A stretch of DNA of 42,855 bases from Hyphomicrobium sp. (GTDB taxonomy: Bacteria; Pseudomonadota; Alphaproteobacteria; Rhizobiales; Hyphomicrobiaceae). Both the position numbers and the translations under genes were made by a program. The notes below the pieces were generated by a model that saw nothing but the letters and a program-made list of their open reading frames with translations, did not search any database and had not been told where the DNA came from. Below are positions 30,510 to 35,908 of this stretch, piece after piece; position 1 is the first letter of the stretch, and each line of letters starts with the position of its first letter. The stretch is taken from contig NZ_RXIZ01000015.1 of NCBI RefSeq assembly GCF_003987855.1, positions 69,971 to 112,825 on the forward strand, written 5' to 3'.

Positions 30510-31244
30510 TTAGTGGGCGGCCATTTCCACTGCCTTTTCAGTCAGTTTCGGGCGCTCTGAACCAGCGATACGGCCATCATCGATCGTGATGATGCGATCG
30601 GCATAAGGCAGCGTGCGATGATCGTGGGTCACCGCCAAAACGGCCCTGCGGGTGTCCTGAGCAACTTTCGCCAGCAGCTCCATGACCGCCAGCCCGTTCT
30701 TGGCATCAAGCGCCGCTGTGGGTTCGTCCGCCAGGATCACCGACGGAGACCCAGCAAGCGCGCGTGCGATCGAAACACGCTGCTTTTCACCGCCCGACAT
30801 TTTCGACGGCATGGCCTTAATGCGGTGGCCGAGCCCGACGGCTTCCAAAGCGTCAGCCGCCTGATCGTAAGCGTCGGGTCCGTTCAGATCGCGCAAATCG
30901 AGAGCAAGCATCACGTTTTCGACTGCCGAGAGAGTCGGCACCAGATTGTAGGACTGGAACACGAACCCGACGTGCTTGCGGCGGAGCTTCGCAAGCTGCT
31001 CCTTGTTCATGGTGTGCGTCTGCAGGCCTCCGATCGTCAGGCGGCCCTGGGTGGGCGAGAGGATGCAGCCCAGAATGGACAGGAGTGTCGTCTTGCCGGA
31101 ACCGGAGGGACCCATCATCAAGGTCAGCTCACCGGTGTGCAATTGGAGGTCGACACCCTTGAGGACTTTGTTCTCGCTCGCGCCGGCCCCCAGCACCTTC
31201 ACGATGCCTTCAGCTTCGACAATCACTTTCGATTCGGTCGTCAT
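30510..31244 (-). CDS. devA: DevA-type ABC transporter ATP-binding protein
   Basis: A 244-residue ATPase of the MacB/LolD/DevA group. It has Walker A GPSGSGKTT (residues 45-53), the Q-loop FVFQSYNLVP, the signature SGGEKQRVSIARAL (from residue 150), Walker B VILADEPTAALD (169-180) and the switch His in LAVTHDHR. In DevBCA systems it powers export of lipids or glycolipids, or other substrates, with a membrane fusion protein and an outer-membrane channel. It starts at an ATG after GGAAGGAATTC, 21 bases after the devC stop. Confidence 0.9.
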   Translation of the reverse strand: MTTESKVIVEAEGIVKVLGAGASENKVLKGVDLQLHTGELTLMMGPSGSGKTTLLSILGCILSPTQGRLTIGGLQTHTMNKEQLAKLRRKHVGFVFQSYNLVPTLSAVENVMLALDLRDLNGPDAYDQAADALEAVGLGHRIKAMPSKMSGGEKQRVSIARALAGSPSVILADEPTAALDAKNGLAVMELLAKVAQDTRRAVLAVTHDHRTLPYADRIITIDDGRIAGSERPKLTEKAVEMAAH

Positions 31245-31265: not shown

Positions 31266-32480
31266 TTAGCGGCTGAACACGACGGCCGGATCGATACGAA
31301 CAACCTTGATGATGGCGCTGATGGCGGCGAACACGCACATGCCGATTGTTATCGCGAAGAGCTGTGCGGCCAGCGGCACCGTCATGATGATGGTGAGCTT
31401 TGTATCCTGTGCAAGATGAATGGCGAGCAACGCCAGGCTCATTCCCAAGACGTAACCGATCAATCCGGAAAGTACGGCTTGAATGAGGATCACCTTGACA
31501 ATGTACCCAGCCCCGGCACCGAGGGCGCGCAACGTTGCGAACTCGTTGATGTGGTCTTTTGTGCTCGAATAGAGTGTCTGCGCAACGATGACAATGCCGA
31601 CGATCAGACCCAGGAGTTTTCCGGCATCGAGCGCGGCACCCGCGCCGGTCTGCTTCAACCAGTAGTCCTGACTGCGGGTGCGGAACTCGGCCTGCGTTAG
31701 GACTTCCGTGTCGGGAAGGCGGGCCTGAATTTCATTGCGCACCGTCTCGATGTTCGCACCGGGAAGAAGCTTCACGCGCTGATAGCTTGCCTGCTCTTGA
31801 TTGGCTCCCGACAGCCTGCGCGCTTCATCGATCGATGTGAAGACGAACGGCAACGTCGTGAATGAGCGCACGCGCTTCGTGATCGCCACCAGCTTGACGG
31901 CAGTTCCGTTGAGCTCGGCATTCTCTCCGAGTTTGCTCACTCCAAGATCGTTGAAGTAGCTGCGGTCTATCGCAACGGTGTTGGGAGCTTCGAGCGCGCC
32001 ACGGCTGCCTTCGATGATGTTGGCAGGAAGAGCCTTCGGGCTGTCGCCCGCCGTACCGATTAGCAGCACAGTCGTTTCGCCACCGAGCGGCTTACGCCAG
32101 CGAGCGAAGGAAACGACCATATCCTCCGAAGCTTCGACGCCAGGCGCCGACAACGCGGTGTAGCGTTCCCGTCCCGACAGGAACGACGGATCGTCGTAGC
32201 TCTTCGTTCCGAGCGGCACGACCCAAAGATCAGCGGGCGCTGCGTCGATGATCGTCGCAATCTTGTTTGCAGATCCCAGATAGATGCCGGACTGAATGGC
32301 GACCAAAACAACCGAAAAGAGGATGCCCACGATCGTGACGATGAAGCTCAACCGGTCATGGAAAAGATTGCGGTAGGCGAGCTTGAAGACCATCGGCAGC
32401 CGCCGGCCGCGCGACCTTGGACGTTGCGATTGCGCGGCGCGCTGATGAGCGAATGGCTGGGCTGTTACTGCGAGTTCCAT
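31266..32480 (-). CDS. devC: DevC-type ABC transporter permease
   Basis: A 404-residue FtsX/MacB-fold permease. The cytoplasmic start (QRPRSRGRRLPMVFKLAYRN) leads to a first helix (FIVTIVGILFSVVLVAIQSG). A large periplasmic domain follows (about residues 60-265: AAPADLWVVPLGTKSYDDPS, VSFARWRKPLGGETTVLLIG), then three C-terminal helices (AGKLLGLIVGIVIVAQTLYS, ILIQAVLSGLIGYVLGMSLA, QLFAITIGMCVFAAISAII). It matches the DevC layout. I chose the ATG at 32480 after AGGGAAGGACC. It forms an operon with devA; the membrane fusion gene is about 1.7 kb upstream. Confidence 0.88.
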   Translation of the reverse strand: MELAVTAQPFAHQRAAQSQRPRSRGRRLPMVFKLAYRNLFHDRLSFIVTIVGILFSVVLVAIQSGIYLGSANKIATIIDAAPADLWVVPLGTKSYDDPSFLSGRERYTALSAPGVEASEDMVVSFARWRKPLGGETTVLLIGTAGDSPKALPANIIEGSRGALEAPNTVAIDRSYFNDLGVSKLGENAELNGTAVKLVAITKRVRSFTTLPFVFTSIDEARRLSGANQEQASYQRVKLLPGANIETVRNEIQARLPDTEVLTQAEFRTRSQDYWLKQTGAGAALDAGKLLGLIVGIVIVAQTLYSSTKDHINEFATLRALGAGAGYIVKVILIQAVLSGLIGYVLGMSLALLAIHLAQDTKLTIIMTVPLAAQLFAITIGMCVFAAISAIIKVVRIDPAVVFSR

Positions 32481-32537: not shown

Positions 32538-32553
32538 TGTTTCCCAGGGCACA
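32538..32553. promoter_or_regulatory. Degenerate copy (E) of the TGTTYC-N4-GRAACA palindrome before devC
   Basis: Forward strand TGTTTC-CCAG-GGCACA, with outer A/T pairs extending the symmetry. One base departs from the consensus seen at sites A-D. It lies 57 bases upstream of the devC start, a position like the other sites. The overlap with a hairpin makes chance possible. Confidence 0.35.
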
Positions 32554-32577: not shown

Positions 32578-33123
32578 TCATTCGCAAGGAACATCGACGA
32601 GTGCGGCAATGGCCGGTGAATACCGCCGGCAGACGTGCTTCGTTTCTGCTCCGCCAGCGTTTTCACCGCTATCTTTCTTTGCCGCGTCGGACGCGTTGTC
32701 AGCGGTGTTTTCGGCCGTCGAAATTTTCCCGGCCGGAGCGGACGTCGCTTTGGTTACCTCCGCATCGCTTTTCTTGATCACTGTTTTCTCTGCAGCCGGC
32801 GTTGACGGCGCGGTGGTGAGCATGTCCTCCCGCTTCGCCTCTTGGAGAACGGGCTTCTCGATGACGGCTTCGGCCACTTGGGGCTGAGGCTGCTTCTTAA
32901 CCTTGACGACCCTGCGAGCCGGGGCATCGTCTTCAAGATCTCTACGGGCGTAACGGGGCTTCTCGGCCTGACGGAAATCCCGAGCGCTGTAGCTCTCGTT
33001 CGAATGTGCAACGAACGAGCCGAGCGGGAAGCCGAAGCCGACGCGAACGCCATCGGCATGGGCCGTGTTGGCTGCCGTCAGGGCGGCCACGACAGCGGCG
33101 AGTGCGATTGTTGTCTTCGTCAT
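32578..33123 (-). CDS. Secreted low-complexity protein, unknown function
   Basis: A 181-residue exported protein. It has a signal peptide of about 23 residues (TIALAAVVAALTAANTAHA), then GVRVGFGFPLGSFVAHSN. A charged, Ala/Lys/Glu-rich disordered middle follows (about residues 45-160). The C-terminus is short and ordered-looking, with two cysteines (HVCRRYSPAIAALVDVPCE). I know of no family. The ATG at 33123 follows GGAGG. A clear copy (site C) of the local palindrome lies 87 bases upstream and the devC-devA operon follows, so it may be cargo, an accessory factor or a co-regulated envelope protein. Confidence 0.8.
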   Translation of the reverse strand: MTKTTIALAAVVAALTAANTAHADGVRVGFGFPLGSFVAHSNESYSARDFRQAEKPRYARRDLEDDAPARRVVKVKKQPQPQVAEAVIEKPVLQEAKREDMLTTAPSTPAAEKTVIKKSDAEVTKATSAPAGKISTAENTADNASDAAKKDSGENAGGAETKHVCRRYSPAIAALVDVPCE

Positions 33124-33210
33124 CGTAGCCTCCACAGGCAACTGGTTACTTGTTTGGGTCCGGGCCATCCCGGTTCATGAGCCGACAATGCTCCGCCGCG
33201 CGCCGATCCG

Positions 33211-33228
33211 CTGTTCCTGCTGGAACAT
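33211..33228. promoter_or_regulatory. Site C of the local TGTTYC-N4-GRAACA palindrome
   Basis: Reverse strand TGTTCC-AGCA-GGAACAGC, 87 bases upstream of the secreted-protein start at 33123. The hexamers are a perfect inverted repeat with a 4-base spacer, as at sites A, B and D, and GC follows in the direction of transcription. Confidence 0.65.
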
Positions 33229-33265
33229 GGCGGACGGCCGAATATTAAATCATGATTTCAGTAGG

Positions 33266-33688
33266 TTAGGCTGCGATGCGCATCTCGGCAGTTGCGGCCT
33301 GTGCATGGCGCGTTGGGGCGGTCATCGCTTCCAAGGCGATCAGCAGCCGCTGAGAGTTGAAGCCGAACCGGATGTTTAGCGGCTGCGCGGCAGTCCAGTG
33401 CGCCAGCGCACCGAAGACCGGATAACCACGCTCGAGAAACAGCGCCTTGACGCGGCGGCTGCTGAACACTGCGAGGAGCGCGCGAAAGCGAAGTGCGATC
33501 GCCACGCGCGAATTGGCGGTGCCCTGATACTCGTTCCAGATCTTCTCCTCCAGCTCGCGGATCTCGCCTTCGTTCAGTCCACGAAGCAAGGCCAGGCCCC
33601 GACCGCTGTCGATCAGCAGCCTCAGAACGAATGCGATATCGGACGCGTCCACGGTGGGGACGTCGGCTACATTGAGCGTGCTGTGCAT
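33266..33688 (-). CDS. Unknown 140-residue cytoplasmic protein
   Basis: I do not recognise this protein. It has no signal peptide or membrane helix. It is mostly helical in character (SDIAFVLRLLIDSGRGLAL, EGEIRELEEKIWNEYQG, RVAIALRFRALLAVFSSRR). A segment ERGYPVFGALAHWTAAQPLN and a short Ala/Thr-rich end follow. The ATG is supported by AAGGAGACCGCG. It lies 20 bases after the cold-shock-like gene, so the two are one operon, controlled from the promoter carrying site B. Confidence 0.75.
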   Translation of the reverse strand: MHSTLNVADVPTVDASDIAFVLRLLIDSGRGLALLRGLNEGEIRELEEKIWNEYQGTANSRVAIALRFRALLAVFSSRRVKALFLERGYPVFGALAHWTAAQPLNIRFGFNSQRLLIALEAMTAPTRHAQAATAEMRIAA

Positions 33689-33708
33689 CGCGCGGTCTCC
33701 TTCAATCT

Positions 33709-33927
33709 TTAGAGGGCGATGCCGCCGAAGGCCGCCCAGGGCGATCCGGCAAGCACAATGATATCGCGAGCTTTGAAGCTGCCGATCTCGAAATGGACCT
33801 CATGACCTTCGAGATCATCGCGGCGATTGCGGATCTCGCCGCCATCGAAACGGTAGCTGCGTCCGTCTTCTGCGCGAATAACGCCGATGCCGAGATCGGC
33901 GCGGAATTTCTTGATTTCTCCGTACAT
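33709..33927 (-). CDS. Small cold-shock-domain-like (OB-fold) protein
   Basis: A 72-residue protein. The opening MYGEIKKFRADLGIGVIRAE followed by DGRSYRFDGGEI resembles the first strands of a cold-shock domain, and VHFEIGSFKARDIIVL the later ones. The aromatic RNP motifs of true Csp proteins are weak, so nucleic-acid binding is only a suggestion. The ATG at 33927 follows GGGAGACAAAG; a start five codons earlier lacks this. It is the first gene of a two-gene operon behind site B. Confidence 0.72.
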   Translation of the reverse strand: MYGEIKKFRADLGIGVIRAEDGRSYRFDGGEIRNRRDDLEGHEVHFEIGSFKARDIIVLAGSPWAAFGGIAL

Positions 33928-33991
33928 CTTTGTCTCCCGCATAAGCCTTGGTTTCTGATGATTGCAGGATGACGGTGGCTTCGGACTTTCG

Positions 33992-34009
33992 CTGTTCCGG
34001 CCGAAACAG
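33992..34009. promoter_or_regulatory. Site B of the local TGTTYC-N4-GRAACA palindrome
   Basis: Forward strand CTGTTCCGG-CCGAAACAG, 18 bases with one mismatched pair. It lies 64 bases upstream of the cold-shock-like gene and just downstream of the devB terminator, so it marks a separate promoter. On the reverse strand it reads TGTTTC-GGCC-GGAACAGC. Confidence 0.68.
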
Positions 34010-34035
34010 GATGCGTACGGAGCGTTTTCAGCATG

Positions 34036-34100
34036 AAAAAAAATTGGCGGGAGAGGCGTGCCGATCGGGCCGCATGCCCCGATTGCACATCTCTCCCGCC
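34036..34100 (-). terminator. Strong intrinsic terminator after devB
   Basis: A 10-base perfect outer stem, GGCGGGAGAG / CTCTCCCGCC, with an inner ATCGGG/CCCGAT stem, is followed on the reverse strand by AATTTTTTTT. It lies about 125 bases after the devB stop and ends the devB transcript, so devB is transcribed apart from the genes downstream. Confidence 0.88.
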
Positions 34101-34163
34101 TTCAGGCCGGCAGCGGCTTCACTAAGGAGGAAGCGAGCCGCCGCTGGCTTTCACTAATCCTCC

Positions 34164-34200
34164 AAGCTCCGCGCCGCGATACGAGTGAGGCGCGGAGCTT
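34164..34200 (-). repeat. Long stem in the devB 3' untranslated region
   Basis: AAGCTCCGCGCC and GGCGCGGAGCTT are perfect 12-base arms with a 13-base loop, starting 25 bases after the devB stop. No T run follows on either strand. It may stabilise the 3' end or be an RNase target, and together with the terminator gives a structured 3' UTR. Confidence 0.6.
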
Positions 34201-34224
34201 CGGGAGGAGCGGCGCGTCGCGCCG

Positions 34225-35304
34225 TTACTTGAAAAAAGCGTCTGCTCGCATGCCGGGAAGCAGCGGAGGATTACCCTCCAGATCGACGGTCACTTCGAGC
34301 ACTTCGACATCGGTCGGCCGGCGTGCGCCACGTAGCGCGAACTGCGGTGAAGTGAGTGTCGGAGCGAGATCAGCAACCGTGCCGTCGAACTCCTTGCCGG
34401 GATAAGCATTGCTCTTCACTTTGACCCTGCCGCCGACCTTGATCTTCGAGACGTCGATCTCGTCGACTTCAGCCTTCAGGCGCACGACCGACATGTCACC
34501 AAGAACCACGAGCGACTGCTCAGGAGAGGGCGAAACCATTTCGCCTGCCTTTGCGGGGAGCTGCAGAACAGTGCCGGCAACCGGGGCGCGGACACGGGTT
34601 TTCTCGAGCAAAGCCTCAGCGACGGCCACATCGGAACGCGCCGCCTGAAGTGCCGATTCCAGCCGGTTTGGCGCAGGAACATCGGGTTTGGCTTGCGCGG
34701 TGGCGTAGGTTGCGCGGGCCTTCTGCAGCTTCGTCTTCGCTTTGGCGAGATCGTCACGAGCATCTGCAACGCGAGCCGCGCTGCCGGTTCCTTGCCGTTC
34801 TGCCTGAAGCTCGTACTCGAGTCCGAACCGAGCATTGGTCAAAGCGCGCTCAGCGGAGAAGACGTTGTCTTCGGCGGTACGAAGTTCATCGCGCGCCTTA
34901 TCCAGCGGCTGAGCATCGCGCTCGCGTTTGCGTGAAGCAGCTTCCGTTTCCGCGGCCTGAAGGCGCGCGCGCGCTTCTTCATCGTCGAGACGGATCAGAA
35001 GCTCACCTTCTTCGACCTTGTCGTTGAGCTTGACGTTGACTTCGGCAATGCGGCCGAGCAACTGCGCGCCGACACGAACGAGGCCCGACTTCGGTTCGAT
35101 GCGGCCAGGCGCTGCGGCAGCCCAGTCGATCTTCGACTCGTAAACCTCGTTTTTGATGACGTCGTCGCTGCCCTTTGCGACGAGCAAGTCGCTGTGGGTC
35201 AGCGCGATCGCGCCAAAAGCGCCCGCGCCTACGGCCAAAAGCAGGAAAAATGTTTTGGCTATGATGCCGCCGCGTCGCGGACGGTCGTTCTCATCGATGC
35301 TCAT
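34225..35304 (-). CDS. devB: DevB-type membrane fusion protein (HlyD family)
   Basis: A 359-residue periplasmic adaptor of an ABC exporter. A cytoplasmic start (MSIDENDRPRRGG) leads to a signal-anchor helix (AKTFFLLLAVGAGAFGAIAL, about 16-36). The first half of the lipoyl domain is APGRIEPKSGLVRVGAQLLG. A long coiled-coil hairpin follows (about residues 105-235), then the second lipoyl half (RVRAPVAGTVLQLPAKAGEM) and a beta-barrel domain (EVDEIDVSKIKVGGRVKVKS). Strong AAGGAGGATAGCAAC precedes the ATG at 35304. It is expected to work with DevC-DevA downstream. Site A lies 90 bases upstream. Confidence 0.9.
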   Translation of the reverse strand: MSIDENDRPRRGGIIAKTFFLLLAVGAGAFGAIALTHSDLLVAKGSDDVIKNEVYESKIDWAAAAPGRIEPKSGLVRVGAQLLGRIAEVNVKLNDKVEEGELLIRLDDEEARARLQAAETEAASRKRERDAQPLDKARDELRTAEDNVFSAERALTNARFGLEYELQAERQGTGSAARVADARDDLAKAKTKLQKARATYATAQAKPDVPAPNRLESALQAARSDVAVAEALLEKTRVRAPVAGTVLQLPAKAGEMVSPSPEQSLVVLGDMSVVRLKAEVDEIDVSKIKVGGRVKVKSNAYPGKEFDGTVADLAPTLTSPQFALRGARRPTDVEVLEVTVDLEGNPPLLPGMRADAFFK

Positions 35305-35394
35305 GTTGCTATCCTCCTTAAAGATGCAGTTGCTGGCCAAGCGAAATCTCGAACCAACTTCACGAGCGAAATTAGAGACTTTAACCCGCCTTTG

Positions 35395-35412
35395 CTGTTT
35401 CGGCCGGAACAG
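35395..35412. promoter_or_regulatory. Site A of the local TGTTYC-N4-GRAACA palindrome
   Basis: Forward strand CTGTTTCGG-CCGGAACAG, 18 bases with one mismatched pair, 90 bases upstream of the devB start. It is the mirror image of site B apart from the position of the mismatch. Reverse strand reads TGTTCC-GGCC-GAAACAGC. Confidence 0.68.
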
Positions 35413-35486
35413 GTGAAAAACGTGATGAAAAATGCTCGCAAAGGCGATGGCGGCAAGATCTTACAGCGAATGATCCGCATAAATAC

Positions 35487-35516
35487 AAAAAAGCTCCGGG
35501 GGCCCGGAGCTTTTGA
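35487..35516 (-). terminator. Intrinsic terminator after the four-cysteine protein gene
   Basis: AAAAGCTCCGG and CCGGAGCTTTT form a long stem with a short GGGC-type loop, followed on the reverse strand by TTTTTTG. It lies about 35 bases after the stop at 35549. The forward side has TTTTG, so it is partly bidirectional. Confidence 0.85.
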
Positions 35517-35548
35517 AATCGCCTCTTCGAACGGTGTTTCCTAATTCT

Positions 35549-35815
35549 CTACTGGCACATCTCGCGAAGGGTCCAGCCCACGATCTTGCAGCTTTCCGCG
35601 CCGCTCGCCGTGATGATGCATTTGCGGTTCGGCAGACGCTGATAATCGCAATAGTAGTTGCCCGAGTGGCCGGAATAGCCATGCATCGGCTTTGCAAACT
35701 GGTAGTCCTGGATGAACACTTCCTTCGCGCCGCCACCTGCGTTGGCAGCGGAAGTGCCGAAGGCGATTGCAGCGAAAGCAGCGGCGACTGTCAGGGCGTT
35801 GGCGAATTTCGTCAT
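35549..35815 (-). CDS. Small secreted four-cysteine protein, unknown function
   Basis: An 88-residue exported protein. The signal peptide is about 26 residues (ALTVAAAFAAIAFGTSAANA), leaving about 62 residues. The mature part has KEVFIQDYQFAKPMHGYSG and then four cysteines at 56, 66, 76 and 87 with near-regular spacing (C-x9-C-x9-C-x10-C), which could form two disulfides. I do not recognise a family. Strong AAGGAGGAACTAGAA supports the ATG at 35815; the frame's upstream extension is not protein-like. Site D lies 75 bases upstream and a good terminator follows, so it is a one-gene unit. Confidence 0.82.
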   Translation of the reverse strand: MTKFANALTVAAAFAAIAFGTSAANAGGGAKEVFIQDYQFAKPMHGYSGHSGNYYCDYQRLPNRKCIITASGAESCKIVGWTLREMCQ

Positions 35816-35890
35816 TTCTAGTTCCTCCTTGAGATGAGCATCGCGCTCTGTGTTTGATGGAGGCACTGTAGATGTGGAGCCGGGTACCGG

Positions 35891-35908
35891 CTGTTCCGGG
35901 TGGAACAA
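35891..35908. promoter_or_regulatory. Site D of the local TGTTYC-N4-GRAACA palindrome
   Basis: Forward strand TGTTCC-GGGT-GGAACA with perfect hexamers. It lies 75 bases upstream of the four-cysteine protein and 82 bases upstream of the divergent glutathione peroxidase, so it could control both. The reverse strand reads TGTTCC-ACCC-GGAACAGC. Confidence 0.68.

Follow-up and report, generated by a model that had tools for sequence, protein, structure and literature searches.

The cyclic-nucleotide receptor Clr was first studied in root-nodule bacteria, and a DNA element that resembles its binding site is the subject of this analysis. The element is a palindrome, TGTTYC-N4-GRAACA, found in a stretch of 42,855 nucleotides (nt) from Hyphomicrobium sp. 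(contig NZ_RXIZ01000015.1, positions 69,971 to 112,825), which is called the window below. The Clr of Sinorhizobium meliloti is described as a CRP-like receptor of cyclic AMP (cAMP) and cyclic GMP (cGMP), with structures 7PZA and 7PZB. Its consensus is reported as HGTYHCNNNNGRWACA, with the core GTNNCNNNNGNNAC, and is also written as HGTYHC-N4-GRWACA (PMC5498481, PMC10127613). In most Clr-activated promoters the site is reported to lie at -42 to -76 from the start (PMC10127613), and the targets given include two proteins that are predicted to be extracytoplasmic, one with a FecR domain and one of the TPR type (PMC5498481). The Clr paper names Q184, S194, R195, K197, and N199 as base contacts. 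The other literature drawn on was PMC9731502, PMC9491525, PMC11389396, PMC9561847, and PMC9275681.

The palindromes of the window fit the Clr consensus and are very probably the sites of a Clr-type activator of the CRP family, which is encoded on contig C5 of the same genome and has the gene of a membrane-bound class III nucleotide cyclase behind it. All four sites agree with HGTYHC-N4-GRWACA at 12 of 12 positions, and the window palindrome is a special case of the published consensus. The original prediction had called the motif undescribed, and this word was dropped because the palindrome fits the published Clr box (PMC5498481, PMC10127613). The fit of the motif, together with a Clr-like protein that has the same DNA-contact side chains, points to a regulon that is probably of the Clr type. 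The four sites and a relaxed fifth one are as follows.

35396..35411, minus strand: site A, Clr-type box of the DevB-like gene, 12/12
33993..34008, minus strand: site B, box of the cold-shock-like and 140-amino-acid gene pair, 12/12
33212..33227, minus strand: site C, box of the secreted low-complexity protein gene, 12/12
35892..35907, minus strand: site D, box of the four-cysteine secreted protein gene, 12/12
32538..32553, minus strand: relaxed fifth site, TGTGCCCTGGGAAACA, before the permease gene, 11/12, without the GC flank, with TATTGT at the right spacing

The four palindromes are a real element and not a product of chance. The exact 16-mers were recovered at the places originally claimed, and the scan of the 42.9 kb found no further exact copy. 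GRAACAGC points to the minus-strand gene at all four sites, also as claimed. The distances to the start codons are about 91 (DevB), 65 (cold-shock-like), 88, and 76 nt, compared with predicted values of 90, 64, 87, and 75; the DevB value refers to the ATG at 35304, and site B is 65 nt from the ATG at 33927 and 50 nt from an upstream ATG. With up to two mismatches allowed, the window has 10 matches against 3.5 expected, and none of 100 shuffles gets to 10. The host genome (3,776,453 bases) contains eight exact palindromes and one match to the reversed control pattern, so four sites in 2.7 kb are far beyond chance, as had been argued from the window. One regulator of this genome shows 98% identity to Hyphomicrobium metagenome genomes, which agrees with the genus label. 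At the permease promoter, a site and -10 hexamer comparable to the relaxed fifth site occur only in L041 among the six relatives compared.

The candidate regulator is a Clr-like CRP protein. Its gene lies at about 9.74-10.45 kb on contig C5, and the window is on contig C1. Among the HTH_Crp_2 proteins of five genomes of the family, one group is present in all five. In each of the five genomes read, the Clr-like gene is followed by a gene with MASE7 and Guanylate_cyc domains. Among PDB structures, the C5 protein matches the Clr of S. meliloti best (7pza, E=2.3e-49), with 88 of 215 aligned residues identical (41%). The DNA-contact side chains Q184, S194, R195, K197, and N199 are identical in all five cases, and L152 is replaced by I. 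In the nucleotide pocket, G85, E86, R95, and S96 are the same as in Clr. The recognition-helix core GASRPKVN is present in all 30 loci read, that of the host included, and in one of the seven CRP-like proteins compared within the host genome. A homologue at E<=1e-40 is found in 63 of 79 family genomes.

The palindromes are promoter elements, and their constant spacing to a -10-like hexamer bears out the earlier idea of a shared promoter element. Seventy sites were used as input, with host site L005, which is within an open reading frame (ORF), excluded beforehand. Eight sites inside a called ORF and two without a neighbour were dropped, and the remaining 60 were oriented solely by the nearest downstream gene. 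In 26 of the 60 sites a YANNNT hexamer begins 22 nt past the palindrome, compared with a mean of 0.9 and a maximum of 6 sites at other offsets. When each of the 23 target families is represented by a single site (200 random picks), offset 22 accounts for 8.6 of 23 sites and the best other offset for 2.5. The GC flank is on the gene side in 43 of the 60 and on the far side in 16. At the expected start position, 33-35 nt past the palindrome, C, A, and T are the commonest bases (30, 28, and 28 sites). The spacing of 22 nt places the palindrome centre at -41.5 from the predicted start, which is the position of a class II activator. A composite pattern of site, GC, 19 nt, and YANNNT, with up to two mismatches, matched 16 times in the host genome against 2 for controls, 9 against 5 in G001, 11 against 4 in G004, and 17 against 2 in G007. 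The -10-like hexamers of the window are listed here.

35369..35374, minus strand: TAATTT, site A, 22-27 nt past the palindrome
33966..33971, minus strand: CATCCT, site B
33185..33190, minus strand: CATTGT, site C
35865..35870, minus strand: TACAGT, site D

The genes at the window locus encode a DevBCA-like exporter and small or secreted proteins. Genes were called with a simple codon-usage caller, which misplaces some starts and gets a few ORFs wrong (as at L041 and L044), and secretion was judged by reading the N-termini by eye.

34225..35304, minus strand: DevB/HlyD-like membrane fusion protein gene, HlyD_D23, TIGR02971 under cut-off
33709..33927, minus strand: small cold-shock-like protein, a label taken from the original prediction, no Pfam or NCBIfam match
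33266..33688, minus strand: 140-amino-acid protein, no family assigned
32578..33123, minus strand: secreted low-complexity protein, no family match
35549..35815, minus strand: four-cysteine secreted protein, homologues within the family of the window
31266..32480, minus strand: DevC-like permease gene, FtsX and MacB_PCD, TIGR01185 under cut-off
30510..31244, minus strand: DevA-like ATPase gene, ABC_tran, TIGR02982 under cut-off

The exporter is called DevBCA-like only, because its scores are below the NCBIfam cut-offs (TIGR02982, 227.8 against 295.8 bits; TIGR01185, 144.9 against 290.35; TIGR02971, 90 against 129). The 140-amino-acid and cold-shock-like genes are likely to be on one transcript.

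The sites are retained at orthologous promoters of relatives, the test that the original prediction had itself proposed. The 22 genomes of the genus that were searched have 153 exact sites and 29 control matches, with 2 to 10 sites per genome and the lowest excess in G011 (3 against 2) and G017 (2 against 1). In relatives with positions listed, the copies concentrate at one locus. This locus is common to eight relatives (L037-L044) and includes the DevB-like, cold-shock-like, 140-amino-acid, low-complexity, DevC-like, and DevA-like genes; the four-cysteine gene is present in L037-L043 and was not found in L044. The DevB and low-complexity promoters match HGTYHC-N4-GRWACA at 12/12 in all eight, and so does the cold-shock-like promoter (six directly, L041 beneath a mis-called ORF, L037 through the composite scan). 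The four-cysteine promoter, read in seven of the eight, matches at 12 positions in four, 11 in two, and 10 in one. The central N4 varies at orthologous promoters while the site is kept. Four of the eight relatives (G001, G002, G004, and G007; loci L037, L038, L040, and L043) have an additional alpha/beta hydrolase gene in the cluster, with its own 10-11/12 site, that is not in the window.

Homologues of the four-cysteine protein are found in 17 of 397 genomes of the order, all from the family of the window. They gave 19 loci, of which 15 were read, L272 and L277 among them (L279, L280, L281, and L284 are outside this set). A site of at least 10/12 is present at 11 of the 15 promoters, and there is none at L277, L278, L282, and L283. 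Ten four-cysteine loci with a site have a constant promoter-side half, GGAACA or GTAACA, with GC next to it in eight, and the outer half-site drifts to TGTCAC or CGTTAC in three.

The palindromes probably mark a genus-wide, genome-scattered regulon of secreted and envelope genes that includes part of the exporter. On other contigs of the host genome, exact sites are found before the genes of a secreted protein rich in Met and His, a 66-amino-acid membrane protein, and a short-chain dehydrogenase (the last with a poor -10), and one exact site is within a gene. Relaxed sites precede genes for a YceI protein, a 67-amino-acid membrane protein, and two secreted proteins, one of them cysteine-rich. 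In relatives, sites are found before FecR, TPR, and DUF2147 genes and a TetR gene, and adjoining transglycosylase and type III polyketide synthase genes. Thus the expectation of envelope and secreted targets holds, and the description of the regulon as local was given up because of the sites on other contigs. No support was found for the redox part of the suggested envelope or redox stress response. Nor is there support for the divergent glutathione peroxidase, which had been proposed as a possible member, because the GC flank is absent on its side in all five loci where a 12/12 site is shared. A scan of 249 genomes of the order is of little use outside the family, since many copies listed there (for example in G038, G178, and G256) are TGTTTCACGTGAAACA, which fits the same pattern and inflates the counts. 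We take TGTTTCACGTGAAACA to be the parS sequence.

Individual sites in relatives have a variety of neighbours. A TetR-family regulator gene is downstream of a site in G004 (L064:1501-1516). In G110, a site (L166:1501-1516) is followed by a 70-amino-acid ORF and a pyridoxal phosphate enzyme (Aminotran_1_2), which we assume to resemble serine palmitoyltransferase, a hint that lipid synthesis is under the same box. Another G110 site (L170:1497-1512) has a CRP/FNR-family gene on one side and, on the other, a divergent gene for a secreted protein. In L057, L074, L075, L084, and L250 the site is 84-87 nt from a conserved 213-amino-acid gene, presumably similar to GTP cyclohydrolase II, and the GC flank faces away from it. 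L008 and L068 have a site between the gene of a 57-66-amino-acid membrane protein and a gene for a lytic transglycosylase, which is divergent (SLT_2 in L068). The palindrome is also found at the same place inside a permease-like gene in six genomes (L005:1501-1516, L046, L051, L067, L073, and L082).

Some observations weigh against a real element or against a Clr-type regulon. The one-mismatch scan of the host genome is near background (29 matches against 22 for the control), and with so small an excess a bare one-mismatch scan tells little. The full YANNNT hexamer is at the right offset in no more than 26 of the 60 sites. In its pocket the C5 protein has A and D in place of T140 and T141 of Clr, so its ligand may differ from that of Clr. 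Sixteen of the 79 family genomes (9 of the 62 more complete ones) have no match to the regulator at E<=1e-40, and G144 carries the regulator and has no exact site, only a relaxed 10/12 site at its four-cysteine promoter. No convincing site was found at the promoter of the Clr-like gene itself.

Other explanations would assign the box to a different regulator or to none. CenR, a conserved alphaproteobacterial response regulator of the envelope, is quite improbable as the binder. In Rhodobacter it is described as switching on genes for secreted and envelope proteins, and in S. meliloti the srlA promoter, which depends on CenK-CenR, is described as having an inverted repeat near -42, so targets and placement are comparable, and the relaxed half-sites TGTCAC are similar to AGTCAC. 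However, the repeats published for CenR are AGTCAC-N6-GTGACT and TGA-N8-TGA, whereas the window sites are N4 palindromes of the TGTTCC-N4-GGAACA type. The host CenR has the DNA-reading stretch TTHTLETH[IV]YRLR[QR]KIE, which is shared by every one of the 66 usable rows among 71 (80 loci fetched, 71 of 83 sequences picked, five of them wrong frames), so the CenR motif should be unchanged. The best site-like match before the host cenR scores no higher than the background before other regulators. Matches upstream of OmpR-type regulators in general were at background level in the 30 loci read. As for ChvI, its reported TTGC-N3-GCAA is unlike the palindrome by inspection, and no scan was made for the direct repeat GCC-N8-GCC.

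A different class II activator, of another CRP/FNR type or of the NarL/LuxR type, has very little probability as the user of the box. The geometry by itself suits several dimeric activators, and one CRP/FNR gene of G110 has a site 107 nt upstream. However, homologues of the G110 protein are patchy, with weak ones alone in the site-bearing G007 and G218 and a 64% homologue in G144, which is without an exact site. The other six CRP-like proteins compared in the host genome lack the Clr helix. For GerE/LuxR-type regulators, of which the host genome encodes ten, none of the 19 loci read (10 of the host, 2 of G258, and 7 of G022) has an exact site, and G258 retains only three such genes. It is extremely improbable that the palindromes have no regulator and reflect chance, coding constraint, or a repeat element. 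The small excess in G011 and the intragenic copies would agree with this, but the copies in the permease-like gene of G000 and five relatives are probably due to protein conservation. The 153 sites against 29 controls, the fixed -10 spacing, and the conservation of the sites at orthologous promoters despite a changing N4 all contradict it.

For the Clr-type regulon, we infer a mechanism from these features. A dimer of the Clr-like protein would bind a cyclic nucleotide, with cAMP or cGMP as the presumed signal. The loaded dimer would sit at the palindrome centred at -41.5, adjoining RNA polymerase, at promoters that appear to have no good -35 element. It would activate the DevB-like gene, the cold-shock-like pair, and the two secreted protein genes, which would be part of the genus-wide set of envelope and secreted genes. 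A more specific proposal, put forward tentatively, is that in Hyphomicrobiaceae a Clr orthologue may have taken on envelope regulation across the family, acting at rigid class II promoters, and that its T140A/T141D pocket may answer a signal other than the cAMP/cGMP read by Clr, or have another preference, with the ligand made by the membrane-bound MASE7 cyclase encoded next to it.

The comparison with Clr gives a likely regulator to conserved small secreted proteins of no known function, along with a binding site and a promoter model. It would connect cyclic-nucleotide signalling with an envelope exporter in bacteria like Hyphomicrobium, and it suggests that Clr control of FecR and TPR extracytoplasmic proteins reaches beyond rhizobial symbiosis. 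In the open-licence literature, no paper joining Hyphomicrobium with such a regulon was found.

The E. coli CAP site is TGTGA-N6-TCACA. The system described here is like that of E. coli CRP/CAP in its 16-bp 6-4-6 palindrome and predicted class II position, and unlike it in the half-site and the recognition helix, where E181 and R185 described for CAP correspond to P and A in the C5 protein. Its predicted mode of action, in which genes for secreted and envelope proteins are activated from sites that lie just upstream of -35, is shared with the CenR regulons described in Rhodobacter sphaeroides and S. meliloti. In contrast, CenR is described as an OmpR-type protein with an N6 inverted repeat or a TGA-N8-TGA direct repeat. 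The Clr regulon is similar in box consensus, in DNA-contact side chains, in a predicted activator-type position near -42, and in FecR and TPR extracytoplasmic targets, and the predicted centre at -41.5 is close to the lower end of the reported Clr range of -42 to -76 (PMC10127613). The protein differs from Clr in its 41% identity, the A and D at T140/T141, and the adjacent MASE7 cyclase gene, while the regulon differs in having small secreted proteins and a DevBCA-like exporter as targets and a tight placement at -41.5. The motif and the probable regulator are of a known kind, and the novelty lies in the host group, in the set of targets, and possibly in the ligand.

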